From contig NZ_LT607733.1 in assembly GCF_900091445.1 (NCBI RefSeq), positions 3,674,501 to 3,738,500 of the forward strand: a stretch of 64,000 nt of DNA, in the 5' to 3' direction. A program made the position numbers and the translations under genes. Source of the DNA: Micromonospora echinofusca. Its GTDB lineage: Bacteria > Actinomycetota > Actinomycetes > Mycobacteriales > Micromonosporaceae. Below are positions 32,401 to 50,000 of the stretch, piece after piece. Position 1 is the first letter of the stretch. Each line of letters begins with the position of its first letter. The notes beneath the pieces were generated by a model. It made no database searches and was not told the origin of the DNA. It was given only the letters and a program-made list of their open reading frames with translations.

Positions 32401-35400
32401 GCCCGGCCACGAAGTCGGGCCGGATCCCCCAGTGTTCGAGCAGCCGGAACAGCGCCACCTCGACGGCGAAGAGCCCGGCCTGGGTGAAGGCCGTCTGGTC
32501 GAGCAGGTCGGCCTCGGCGGTGCCGGGCTCGGCGAACAGCACCGGACGCAGCGGTCGCGGCAGGTACGCGTCCAGGTGCTGGCACGCCTCGTCGAGGGTC
32601 GCCGCGAAGACGGGGAACGTCTCGTACAGTCGGCGGCCCATCCCGGCGTGCTGGGCGCCCTGGCCGGAGAAGACCGCCGCCAGCGCGCCGCCGGGCTCGG
32701 CGACGCCCCGGGTGAGGCCGGGGTAATCCTGGCCGGCGGCGAGGGCCCGCAGGCCGGCGAGGGCGGCGTCGGCGTCGGCGGCGAGCAGCACCGCGCGGTG
32801 CCGCAGCGGGGACCGTCCGGTGGCCAGTGCCCGGGCCACGTCGGCGGCGGGCGTCGCGCTGCCCGGCAGCCAGTCGGCCAGCCGTGCCGCCTGGGCCCGC
32901 AGGCTGTCGGCGGTGTCGGCCGAGACGACCCAGGGCAGCACCGGCGGCCCGTCGGCCGGCCGGGGCGTGCCGGCGTCGGCCGTCGCGGCGGCGGGGGCCT
33001 GTTCGATGATGACGTGCACGTTGGTGCCGCTGACCCCGAACGACGACACGCCGGCCCGGCGCGGCCGGTCGACGTCCGGCCACGGCTGCGCCTCGGTCAG
33101 CAGCGCGACGGCGCCCGCCGACCAGTCCACGTGCGGCGACGGCTCGTCCACGTGCAGGGTGGGCGGCAGCAGGTCGTGCTGGAGCGCCAGCACCATCTTG
33201 ATCACACCGGAGACGCCGGCGGCGGCCTGGGTGTGGCCGATGTTCGACTTGACGGAGCCGAGCCACAGCGGCCGGTCCGCGGGCCGGTCCCGCCCGTACG
33301 TGGCGAGCAGCGCCTGCGCCTCGATGGGGTCGCCGAGCCGGGTGCCGGTGCCGTGCCCGTCGACGGCGTCCACGTCGGCGGCGGTCAGCCGCGCGTTGGC
33401 CAGCGCCTGGCTGATCACCCGCTCCTGGGCCGGCCCGTTGGGTGCGGTCAGGCCGTTGCTGGCGCCGTCCTGGTTCATCGCCGAGCCGCGGACGACGGCC
33501 AGGATCCGCCGACCGTCACGCTGGGCGTCGGAGAGCCGCTGCAACATCACCAGGCCGACGCCCTCGCCCCAGCCGGTGCCGTCGGCGGCCCCGGCGAACG
33601 ACTTGCACCGGCCGTCGAGGGCCAGCCCCCGCTGCCGGGCGAACTCCAGGAACGGGCCGGGGGTGGCCATCACCGTCACGCCGCCGGCGACCGCGACGTC
33701 GCACTCGCCCTGCCGCAGGGACTGGCAGGCCAGGTGCAGCGCCACCAGCGACGACGAGCAGGCGGTGTCGACGCTGACGGCGGGGCCCTGCAACCCGAAG
33801 TGGTACGCCAGCCGACCGCTGATGACGGCGGCGACGTTGCCGGTGGCCTGGTAGCCCTCGGTCTCGACGCGGGCGGCCATCAGCAGCGTCGCGTAGTCCT
33901 GGCCGTTGGTGCCGACGAAGACTCCGGTGTTGGTCTCCCGCATGTCGGCCGGCGCGGTGCCGGACCGCTCGAACAGCTCCCAGGCGCTCTCCAGCAGCAC
34001 CCGCTGCTGCGGGTCCATCACCATCGCCTCGCGCGGAGAGATGCCGAACAGGGCGGCGTCGAAGCCGGCGGCATCGGTGAGGAAGCCGCCCTCCCGCACG
34101 TACGAGGTGCCGGGCCGGTCGGGATCGGGGTCGTAGATCGCCGCCAGGTCCCAGCCCCGGTCGGTCGGAAACTCCGCGATCCCGTCGCGTCCCTCGGCGA
34201 CCAGTCGCCACAGGTCCTCGGGGCCGGCGACACCGCCGGGGTAGCGGCAGCTCATCGAGACGATGGCGATCGGCTCGTCCAGCGCGGTGGCGGCCTGCGT
34301 GGGCGCGGCCGTCGGGGCGTCGTCGCCGGTGATCCTGGTCGCCAGGTGCTCGGCGAGGGCGTCGGGCGTCGGACGGTCGAACACCAGGGTCGCGGGCAGG
34401 TTCAGCCCCACCGCCTCGGCGAGGCGGTTGCGCATCTCGACGGCGCTGAGCGAGTCGAAGCCGATCTCCCGGAACGACCGGTCCGCCGCGAGCGCCTGCG
34501 GCGAGGCCAGCCGCAGCACCGCCGCCGCGTGGACGCGTACGAGGTCGAGCAGGACCCGGCGGCGTTCCGGCGCGGCGAGGCCGGCCAGGCGGCCGCGCAG
34601 CGGGGAGGCCGCGTCGGGCGTGTCGCCCTCGCGCTGCCCGGCGGCGAGCAGCCGCGCCACCTCGGGGACGTCGGCGATCAGCGGCCGGGGGCGGGCCAGC
34701 GTGTAGGTCTGCAGGAACCGGTCCCAGGCGATGTCCGCCACGGTGAGGGTGGTGTCGCCGTCGTCGAGCGCCCCGGCCAGGACCGAGACCGCGAGGTCGG
34801 GACGCATGGCCCGTACGCCCGAGCGGAACATCTGGTCGGCGGCGCCCTCGGCGTCGACCATGCCGCCGCCGTCCCAGGCGCCCCAGGCGATGGCGGTGGC
34901 GGCCCGGCCGCGCCGTCGCCGGTCCTCGGCGAGCGCGTCGAGGAAGGCGTTGGCCGCGGCGTAGCCGCCCTGGTGCCCGCCGCCCCAGACGCCCGCCCCG
35001 GAGGAGAAGAGCACGAACGCCGACAGCCCGTCGCCGCACACCTCGTCGAGGTTGACCGCCCCGGCCACCTTGGCGCGCAGGGCGTCGGCGAGGTCGGCCA
35101 CGTCGGTGGCCGCGACCGGTGCGGCGTGGGCGACGCCGGCGGTGTGGAACACGGCCCCGATGCGGGTGCCCTGCCCGGCCAGCCGCTCGACGAGGTCCCG
35201 CACGGCGGCGGGGTCGGCGACGTCGCAGGCGGCCACGGTGACGGTGGCGCCGGCGGCGCGCAGTTCGTCCGCCAGCTCGTCGGCGCCGGGCGTGGCGGGG
35301 CCCTGGCGGCCGGTCAGCACCAGTTCGCCGACGCCCTCGCGGGCCAGCCAGCGCGCGACCTGGGCCCCGATCGACCCGAGGCCGCCGGTGACCAGGACGG

Positions 35401-47000: not shown

Positions 47001-50000
47001 CAGCCGGCGGTGCTCCACCGCCAGGCCGAGGGTGTACGCGGTGGCGAGGCCGGTCAGCAGCCGGGTGGCGGCGTCGTCCGGCCCGCAGAGGGTGTCCAAG
47101 ACGTGGCCGGTGGTGCCGGTCGCGTCGAGCACGGCGGCGACCCGGGCGGCCAGCGCGGGTGCCGGCGAGACCTCCACGAAGGTCACGTGTCCGGCCGCCA
47201 CGGCGGCGCGCAGGGCGGCGTCGAGCCGCTCCGTTCCCGCGTCCCCGCCGGCGGCCGCCGGAGCACCGGTCCCGAGCGCGGCCCAGTGGTCCGGACCGAG
47301 CCCGGCCGGGTCGGTCCAGTCCCCGGTGACGGTGGAGGCCAGCCGGGCGGTCCCGGGCTGCGGCGCGATTCCCGCCAGGGCGGCGCGGAGGCCCTCGGGG
47401 TCCAGGTCACCGGCGGCGGCCCGGGCCCGCAGCGCCACCGTGCGGGCGGCGTCGGGCAGGGAGAGCAGGCCCGCGACGCAGGCGGCCACGACCTCGCCGT
47501 CGCCGTCGCCGACGACCGCGGCCGGGGTGAGCCCGGCGTGCCGCCAGACGGCGGCGAGCGCCACGCCGACGGCGAACAGGATGGGCCGGGCCAGCTCCGG
47601 CCGCTCGGCCCAGGAGGGGTCGGAGCCGGTGAGCAGGGCGGCCGGGTCGACGTCCACCCAGGGGGCGAGGGCCTGCCGGCACTCGGCGAGGGTGTCGTCG
47701 AAGACCGGGCAGCGGCCCACCAGGTCGGCCGCCGCGCCCGCCGGGGCGACGGCCGGGAAGACGAGCACCGGGCCCGCGCCGTGGTTGGCGACGGTGCCGG
47801 TCACCACGTTGCCGGCCGGGGTGCCGGCCGCGAGGGCGTCCAGGCCGGCCAGCAGCTCGCCGGGGGTGGCGCCGAGCACCACGGCACGCCGGTCGAACGC
47901 CGAGCGGGTCGCGGCGAGGGACCAGCCGACCGCCGCCGGGGCGAGGCCGGGGTGCGCGCGCAGGTGCCGGGCCAGCCGGGACGCCTGCGCGGCCAGGGCG
48001 GAGGCCGAGCGGGCCGAGACCGGCCAGACCACCGCGTCGGCGGCCAGCAGCCCGGCGGCCGGGGCGGGGGTCGCCTCGGCGTCGCCGGCGGCGTCGGTGT
48101 CGACGGCCTGCTCGACGACCACGTGGGCGTTGGTGCCGGAGATGCCGAACGAGGAGACCGCCGCCCGGCGGGGCCGGCCGACCGCCGGCCAGGGCCGGGA
48201 CCGGGTCACCAGCTCCACGTCGCCGGCCGACCAGTCGATGTGCGGCGACGGGGTGTCCGCGTGCAGCGACGCCGGGACGGTGCCCTCCCGCATCGCCAGC
48301 ACCATCTTGATCACGCCGGCCACGCCGGCGGCGGCCTGCGCGTGGCCCATGTTCGACTTGACCGAGCCCAGCAGCAGCGGGCCGGCGTCGCCCCGGTCCT
48401 GCCCGTACGTCGCGAGCAGGGCCTGCGCCTCGATGGGGTCGCCGAGGACGGTGCCGGTGCCGTGGGCCTCGACGACGTCCACGTCCGTGGTCGTCAGCCG
48501 GGCGCTGGCGAGCGCCTGCCGGATCACCCGCTGCTGGGAGGGACCGTTGGGGGCGGTCAGGCCGTTGGACGCGCCGTCGGAGTTGACGGCGGAGCCGCGT
48601 ACCACGGCGAGGATGCGGCGGCCCTGCCGCCGGGCGTCGGAGAGCCGCTGCACGAGCAGCATGCCGACGCCCTCGGACCAGCCGGTGCCGTCCGCCGTGG
48701 CGGCGAAGGACTTGCACCGCCCGTCGGAGGCCAGGCCGCCCTGGCGGGAGAACTCCTGGAACGCCGTCGGGGTGGCCATGACCGCCACGCCGCCGGCCAG
48801 CGCCAGGTCGCACTCGCCGCGCCGCAGCGCCGCCCCGGCGAGGTGCAGCGCCACCAGGGACGAGGAGCAGGCGGTGTCGACGGTGACGGCCGGTCCCTCC
48901 AGACCGAGGGCGTACGCGACCCGGCCGGAGATGACGCTGTGCGCGGCGCCGGTCATCAGGTAGCCCTCGACGCCCTCGGGGACCTCGGTGAGCCCGGTAC
49001 CGTAGCCGGAGGTGGAGGCGCCCACGAAGACGCCCGTACGGGTGCCGCGCAGCGTCGCCGGGTCCACCCCGGCCCGCTCCAGCGCCTCCCAGGACGTCTC
49101 GAGGGTGAGCCGCTGCTGCGGGTCCATGGCGAGGGCCTCGCGGGGCGAGATCTCGAAGAACGCGGGGTCGAAGTCCGCCACGTCGTAGAGGAAGCCGCCC
49201 GCCGGCGGGTGCGTCCCCTCCGCAGGCTCGGGGATCTCCCAGCCCCGGTCGGTGGGGAACGGCGAGATGGCGTCCACGCCGTCGGCGACCAGCCGCCAGA
49301 ACGCCTCCGGCCCGTCGACGCCCCCGGGGTAGCGGCAGGCCATGCCGACGATCGCGACGGGCTCGTCGGCGTCGACGACGACGGCCTGCGGGGCGTCGGC
49401 GGGGGCGGCGCCGGAGACCAGCTCGCGCAGGTGCGCGGCCAGCTCGGCGGGGGTCGGGTAGTCGAAGACCAGCGTGGTGGGCAACCGCAGGCCGGTGGCC
49501 GTGTTCAGCCGTCCCCGGAAGTCCACGGCGGTCAGCGAGTCGAAGCCGAGGTCCTTGAACGGGCGGCCGCGCAGCTCGTCGGGGGTGGCGTGGCCCAGCA
49601 CCGCGGCGGTCTGCTCGTTGACCAGCCGCAGCAGCTCCCGCTCCTGCTCCGCCGCGGGCAACGCCGCGAGGTGGCGCAGCGGCGCGGCGACCCCGCCCGT
49701 GGGCGTGGCGGCCTCCTCCTGCGCGACGAGCGCCCGCACCTGCGGCAGGCCGCCCAGGAAGGGGCTGGGCCGGGCCACGGTGAACGCGGGGTGGAACCGG
49801 CTCCAGTCGACGTCGGCGACGGTCACGCAGGGCGTCGGGCGACGCAGCGCCCGGTCGAGGGCGACGAGGGCCTTCTCCGGGTCGACGGGCGGCAGGCCCA
49901 TCCGGTTGAGCTGCTCGGTGGCCACGTTCTCGGCGGCCATGCCGTGCGCGCCGCCCCAGGCCGTCCAGGAGACGGCGGTGGCCGGCAGGCCCCGGTCGCG

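Follow-up and report, generated by a model that had tools for sequence, protein, structure and literature searches.

Loss of acyltransferase segments from two modules of a quinolidomicin-type polyketide synthase of Micromonospora

Quinolidomicin, a 60-membered macrolide (PMC9054317) made by a strain of Micromonospora chalcea, is assembled by a giant polyketide synthase (PKS), qnm, for which Table 3 of PMC8698034 gives a CoA-ligase loading part followed by 33 extension modules, spread over 13 PKS proteins; in the same table, module 19 of M. chalcea AK-AN57 is listed without an acyltransferase (AT). Modules lacking a working AT have also been described elsewhere: DEBS with a null AT6, supplied with the malonyl transacylase of S. 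coelicolor, gave 2-desmethyl-6-dEB (PMC6164871), and modules 2 and 5 of the haliamide synthase, which have no AT, were found by feeding to incorporate malonate (PMC6274090). Furthermore, cis-acting ATs are reported to favour their own acyl carrier protein (ACP) just about tenfold (PMC11907408). Here we analyse a 64,000-nucleotide stretch of the Micromonospora echinofusca genome (hereafter the window; positions 3674501-3738500 of its single 7.0 Mb contig, NZ_LT607733.1), which carries a synthase of this kind with decayed ATs in modules 19 and 21. These AT losses are real, lineage-specific and recurrent in a known giant macrolide synthase, and both modules probably still extend the chain, their ACPs receiving malonate from a source beyond the module and the methyl groups at C26 and C30 being lost. 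With intact and decayed orthologues available side by side, the locus illustrates how a cis-AT module can lose its AT and probably keep working.

Decayed acyltransferases of modules 19 and 21

A search of the whole genome for AT domains placed the window inside a type I PKS cluster of about 179 kb (contig 3647511-3826585, minus strand throughout), in which 13 PKS genes encode a loading part and 33 modules bearing a ketosynthase (KS). Their order is that of the published quinolidomicin synthase, gene E corresponding to QnmA6 (modules 18-19) and gene D to QnmA7 (modules 20-22). The modules accordingly run M18-M19(E2)-M20(D1)-M21(D2)-M22, and one module, M20, separates the two AT-null modules, which the original prediction from this DNA had placed three modules apart.

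Full ATs are kept in 31 of the 33 modules. In both M19 and M21 the catalytic Ser is lost (Table 1), as is a segment of 75-79 residues, from nearly the same inner stretch, that holds the YASH motif and with it the catalytic His and the specificity motif. In an alignment to the intact orthologue L037, M19 lacks residues 282-356 of the post-KS interval and M21 residues 278-356, the GHSQGE motif of the intact protein lying at residue 248 and 247, respectively. This alignment upholds the earlier proposal that E2 and D2 had lost nearly the same AT segment, to which the loss of Ser in both is an addition. The Pfam AT match is interrupted, with two pieces in D2 and one listed piece in E2, and the KS-AT linker and post-AT motif are retained beside the deletion. 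Outside the ATs, as had also been noted for the KS and ACP active sites, the KS Cys-His-His, the motifs of the M19 dehydratase (DH), the Tyr of the M21 ketoreductase (KR) and the ACP Ser are intact in every orthologous row (n=25 for M19, n=24 for M21).

The neighbouring ATs are of a different type. Those of M12-M18, M20 and M22 carry the malonyl-type HAFH motif, in line with the original prediction for genes D and E and the next upstream gene, and that of M23 is malonyl-type as well; methylmalonyl-type ATs with YASH remain in the line at M2, M24, M26, M27, M29, M30 and M31. The view that the two remnants are themselves methylmalonyl-type holds by descent, in that they cluster with intact orthologues that possess GHSQGE and YASH.

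We surveyed the distribution of both lesions by searching DNA of the E/D junction against 151 Micromonospora genomes sampled from a larger group, which returned 24 full-length matches of at least 80% identity (own locus included) and one fragment. Together with M. okii (L061), retrieved by a separate named search, these matches make up 25 usable rows, or 24 for M21, L028 ending at a contig end before that module. M19 is null in 12/25 loci and M21 in 12/24, and the remaining orthologues have full-length methylmalonyl-type ATs with GHSQGE and YASH at both modules. Both modules are null in the M. echinofusca locus and nine others, and both are intact in eleven; M. rubida (L036) is null at M19 with M21 intact, M. 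pallida (L041) and M. okii show the reverse, and L028 is null at M19. The M. okii state agrees with Table 3 of PMC8698034, where its M21 is given as KS/KR/ACP. M. chalcea DSM 43026 (L055) is null at both modules. Excluded from these counts were a contig fragment (L049), a row with broken frames (L059), other PKS modules (L050-L053), repeats of genomes already counted (L054-L058, L060, L062 and L063) and the remaining loci of the M. okii search, which are other PKSs with identity of at most 52%. Among protein records, 21 of 25 QnmA6-like candidates were null at M19 and 12 of 13 QnmA7-like candidates at M21, and the exceptions (four and one, respectively) differ in module layout; these records were chosen from best-scoring rows, which favours the null form, so that no frequency can be derived from them. 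Chance and sequencing or assembly error as sources of the lesions are ruled out by in-frame nulls recurring in 12 loci for each module.

Table 1. Genes and domains of modules 18-22 in window coordinates
Feature	Coordinates	Strand	Observations
Gene E, QnmA6-like, modules 18 and 19	44079..54143	-	Open reading frame and domain layout; order per PMC8698034 Table 3
KS of module 19	48261..49364	-	Catalytic Cys-His-His intact; dN/dS 0.09
AT remnant of module 19	47025..47765	-	GDGDGE for GHSxGE at 47493-47510; YASH inner segment deleted; dN/dS 0.61
DH of module 19	45996..46880	-	H and D motifs intact; dN/dS 0.30
KR of module 19	44862..45395	-	His instead of usual Tyr, 25/25 rows; dN/dS 0.22
ACP of module 19	44337..44531	-	GFDSL intact; dN/dS 0.03
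Gene D, QnmA7-like, modules 20, 21 and 22	29477..44032	-	Start at MPTEAEF codon
AT of module 20, intact malonyl-type, candidate loader	41354..42322	-	GHSIGE, HAFH; dN/dS 0.17; between both null modules
KS of module 21	37517..38644	-	Catalytic Cys-His-His intact; dN/dS 0.07
AT remnant of module 21	36347..37045	-	GHAHGE for GHSxGE at 36767-36784; YASH inner segment deleted
KR of module 21	34874..35404	-	Tyr intact; dN/dS 0.19
ACP of module 21	34343..34537	-	GFDSL intact; dN/dS 0.13

Two KRs in modules that lie partly beyond the window also stand out: that of module 17 (gene o35) lacks the NADP and Tyr motifs, and that of module 33 (gene o27) gives a weak match of 74.9 bits. The KS of module 22 (33149-34276) reads VDGHGTG in place of VEAHGTG with the catalytic His retained.

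Ancestry of the losses and selection on the null modules

In a phylogeny of AT domains, the M19 remnants cluster with intact M19 orthologues and with the M24, M27, M29, M30 and M31 ATs of the same synthase (16 rows, support 100), and the M21 remnants form a separate clade with intact M21 orthologues (11 rows, support 100). The two nulls are thus not copies of each other; descent of the pair from one duplicated AT-null module, as the original prediction had suggested, is ruled out by these different clades and by the different branches on which the losses fall. In the same tree, the M24 and M27 ATs are near-identical (branches 0.004 and 0.018), as expected from recent gene conversion. When null states were placed on a tree built from M19-M22 domains minus both AT intervals, one change was needed for M19 and three for M21. 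Two groupings count against three M21 losses: the M. okii remnant clusters with remnants of the M. echinofusca clade (99), and the intact M21 AT of M. rubida falls with L037, a member of the other clade (95). Fewer independent M21 losses might suffice if alleles had moved between clades or if decayed sequences attract each other in the tree.

The M21 deletion also varies between loci: M. okii, M. pallida, L035 and L027 differ in its ends (start 274-281, stop 334-356), although almost the same stretch is removed in each. Given that the M21 AT retains its Ser in M. pallida and L027, and reads GHSHGE in L034, the deletion probably preceded loss of Ser in this module. Direct repeats of at least 8 bases at the M21 deletion ends were absent from three of the four intact M21 sequences searched; L037 has one, of 11 bases. 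For engineering, the repeated in-frame removal of this AT segment, with the KS-AT linker and post-AT motif left in place, supplies naturally tolerated boundaries.

We then compared ratios of nonsynonymous to synonymous substitution (dN/dS), computed pairwise across nine genomes with null ATs (eight in the case of M21), pooled, and bootstrapped over codons; for M21, L041 was omitted from intact group A and L036 from the clade A count. The M19 remnant gave 0.61 (0.48-0.78), compared with 0.14, 0.18 and 0.20 in three intact groups, and the M21 remnant 0.65 (0.49-0.85), compared with 0.24, 0.18 and 0.36. In the same genomes the intact M20 and M22 ATs gave values of 0.17 and 0.34. Within the remnants, the portion after the deletion is the looser (0.83 for M19 and 0.80 for M21; before the deletion, 0.36 and 0.49). 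The AT remnants are therefore under relaxed constraint with some constraint left, neither whole remnant reaching a dN/dS of 1, as might follow from a scaffold role or from the time before the loss. The KS, KR and ACP of both modules and the DH of M19, at or near the values of intact groups (Table 1), are under purifying selection, with the proviso that KS21 dS is high and that recombination between modules may disturb single dN/dS values. Constraint on these domains while the AT is relaxed argues against skipping of the two modules.

Structure models of the KS-AT remnant parts had mean pLDDT values of 57.7 and 55.6, in which the linker and AT remnant were mostly confident and the KS part, poorly predicted from few sequences, was unusable. 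The linker and AT remnant part of the M21 model aligns with solved ATs, a property of the model that says nothing of stability.

Extension, skipping and the source of the extender unit

Modules 19 and 21 descend from modules that loaded methylmalonyl through their own ATs, which in this Micromonospora lineage lost the inner segment together with the catalytic Ser. With KS, DH, KR and ACP still under purifying selection, ACP19 and ACP21 are most likely charged by an AT outside the module; the chain would then be extended with malonate, so that product length and ring size are kept and the C26 and C30 branches are absent, and the truncated AT is predicted to persist as a folded scaffold between the KS and the domains that follow.

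A free-standing AT in the cluster, one of the loaders envisaged in the original prediction, was not found in whole-genome searches with PF00698 and TIGR00128. Of 51 PF00698 matches, 50 sit in open frames of at least 825 residues, and the sole exception is a 415-residue frame (1202880-1204043; L157:5877-7046) about 2.4 Mb from the cluster. The protein scores 156.4 bits, below the NCBIfam fabD cut-off of 260.9, and is for this reason named FabD-like; its gene lies close to an ACP gene and a KS gene, and no match in Pfam was obtained for a fabH, which would be expected next to it. The C-terminus of the protein has a weak biotinyl/lipoyl match (PF00364, 23.4 bits against a cut-off of 22.1), and in the M21-null genome G137 the copy (C2:131860-132792) is shortened, with one internal TAG. 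The FabD-like gene occurs in 23/23 genomes tested, null and intact (G097 omitted), and the data do not support a discrete AT confined to null lineages, discrete ATs other than the FabD-like protein having been sought in the M. echinofusca genome only. The FabD family is of malonyl type, and further malonyl-type ATs outside the null modules are at hand in AT18, AT20 and AT22. The candidate loaders are therefore these three malonyl ATs and, from primary metabolism, the FabD-like transacylase. Since a 213.7 kb region supplemented with regulator genes yielded quinolidomicin in S. lividans (PMC9697125), a special strain-specific loader seems unnecessary.

Ring size offers a second line of argument, provided that it is the M5 oxygen that closes the ring and that no module acts more than once. 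With zero skips the M5 hydroxyl closes a 60-membered ring, whereas one skip would draw the ring oxygen from M4 and two skips from M3, and both M3 and M4 carry a DH with its His and Asp motifs. The 60-membered ring, the AT-less M19 of the published synthase and the preserved DH and KR together favour extension, at M19 at least.

Several observations weigh against continued extension at both modules. Table 3 of PMC8698034 lists M21 of AK-AN57 as ATmm, which restricts the ring argument to M19 unless that label denotes a remnant; it may be a remnant called by a program. Of 24 genomes tested (G097 omitted), 12 carry module 4 (86-100% identity; module 4 AT, L018:3-662, outside the window), and a null AT at M19 and/or M21 accompanies it in 12/12 cases, as opposed to 1/12 without module 4. 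On the tree, module 4 was gained twice, each time together with a null state, although significance is unattainable with two independent pairs, and the book-keeping above leaves module 4 outside the ring. It is possible that gain of an early module is coupled to late AT loss, for example as compensation of chain length by skipping. In addition, KR19 reads HAAAN for the usual YAAAN in 25/25 rows, which leaves its activity unsure; found in null and intact rows alike, this change predates the AT loss. The dN/dS of KR19 is also slightly above that of the intact groups (0.15-0.19), with overlapping intervals.

The original prediction had left the choice between skipping and outside loading, and it is the latter that the preserved domains and the ring book-keeping support. 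Passage of the chain through M19 and M21 without extension, giving a shorter product in which module 4 may offset one skip, is unlikely: the absence of an AT from both modules and the distribution of module 4 would suit it, yet it would leave DH19, KR19 and KR21 idle when all three are constrained, and with an AT-less M19 a 60-membered ring would need an oxygen from M4, whose DH motifs are intact. Still less probable is charging from outside with methylmalonate, for instance by the M24 AT, which would leave the product unchanged. Seven methylmalonyl-type ATs do persist in the line, but those nearest to the null modules, M12-M18, M20, M22 and M23, are malonyl-type, as is the FabD family. Moreover, in the DEBS precedent a malonyl transacylase acting on the AT-null synthase gave the desmethyl product (PMC6164871).

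That the losses mark early, general decay of a cluster without a product is the least probable reading. Two lost ATs, a damaged KR17 and a weak KR33 could be taken as its signs, but no PKS reading frame is interrupted, dN/dS is low for the remaining domains tested in M19-M22, the null M19 of 21 QnmA6-like protein clusters points to an old and widespread state, and a M. chalcea strain makes quinolidomicin. Turning back to continued extension with malonate, AT loss is the step needed to pass from cis- to trans-loading. More tentatively, and with the chances not quite even, the locus may represent a natural transition of this kind in stages, in which recurrent excision at nearly the same internal boundaries (once in AT19, three times on the tree in AT21) leaves the other domains under selection and general malonyl loading takes the place of the lost methylmalonyl ATs. 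If so, AT loss would be a recurrent natural route to delete methyl branches, and the shared boundaries would mark a tolerated cut within AT domains. Domain-based prediction for this family can overcount methyls, as remnants may be labelled methylmalonyl ATs.

Comparison with described systems

By its module order, the M. echinofusca synthase is a quinolidomicin-type cis-AT PKS of Micromonospora. It contains module 4, a malonyl-type module 12 and a module 10 without room for an enoylreductase (ER; inferred solely from DH-KR spacing), traits that in Table 3 of PMC8698034 belong to M. chalcea AK-AN57 and not to the other two strains. The neighbouring genes, which encode an AMP-ligase loading protein, a DHQ-synthase-like protein, an FAD hydroxylase, a thioesterase, a LuxR-type regulator, a glycosyltransferase and an ABC transporter, fit this assignment. 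With AK-AN57 the locus thus shares module order, 13 PKS genes, CoA-ligase loading, module 4, malonyl-type M12 and an AT-less M19; compared by published labels, it differs in M21, ATmm there and a remnant here. No discussion of the missing M19 AT was found in the searched text of PMC8698034, or of the AT losses in the portions of the open-access quinolidomicin literature searched, subscription papers lying outside that scope.

Like trans-AT PKSs such as that for bacillaene (PMC11907408), the null modules combine KS, linker, processing domains and ACP with no working AT. Unlike them, the cluster has no discrete AT, 31/33 modules are cis-AT, and the null modules hold decayed cis-ATs; by the tests made, which concerned discrete ATs and the share of modules with an AT, the synthase is not a trans-AT PKS.

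A parallel to a methylmalonyl module without a working AT is the engineered AT6-null DEBS, in which rescue by a general malonyl transacylase gave a desmethyl product (PMC6164871). Here, by contrast, the null is natural, affects two modules of one line and leaves a remnant, and rescue is predicted. AT loss may in this way provide a natural means of removing methyl branches. The haliamide synthase hla of Haliangium ochraceum (PMC6274090) likewise has two AT-less modules among cis-AT modules, a separate malonate-type AT being encoded at another site in that genome, and M19 and M21 show the same combination of no working AT with intact KS and ACP. Whereas malonate incorporation in hla was shown by feeding, the intact orthologues of the Micromonospora synthase reveal what was lost and how.

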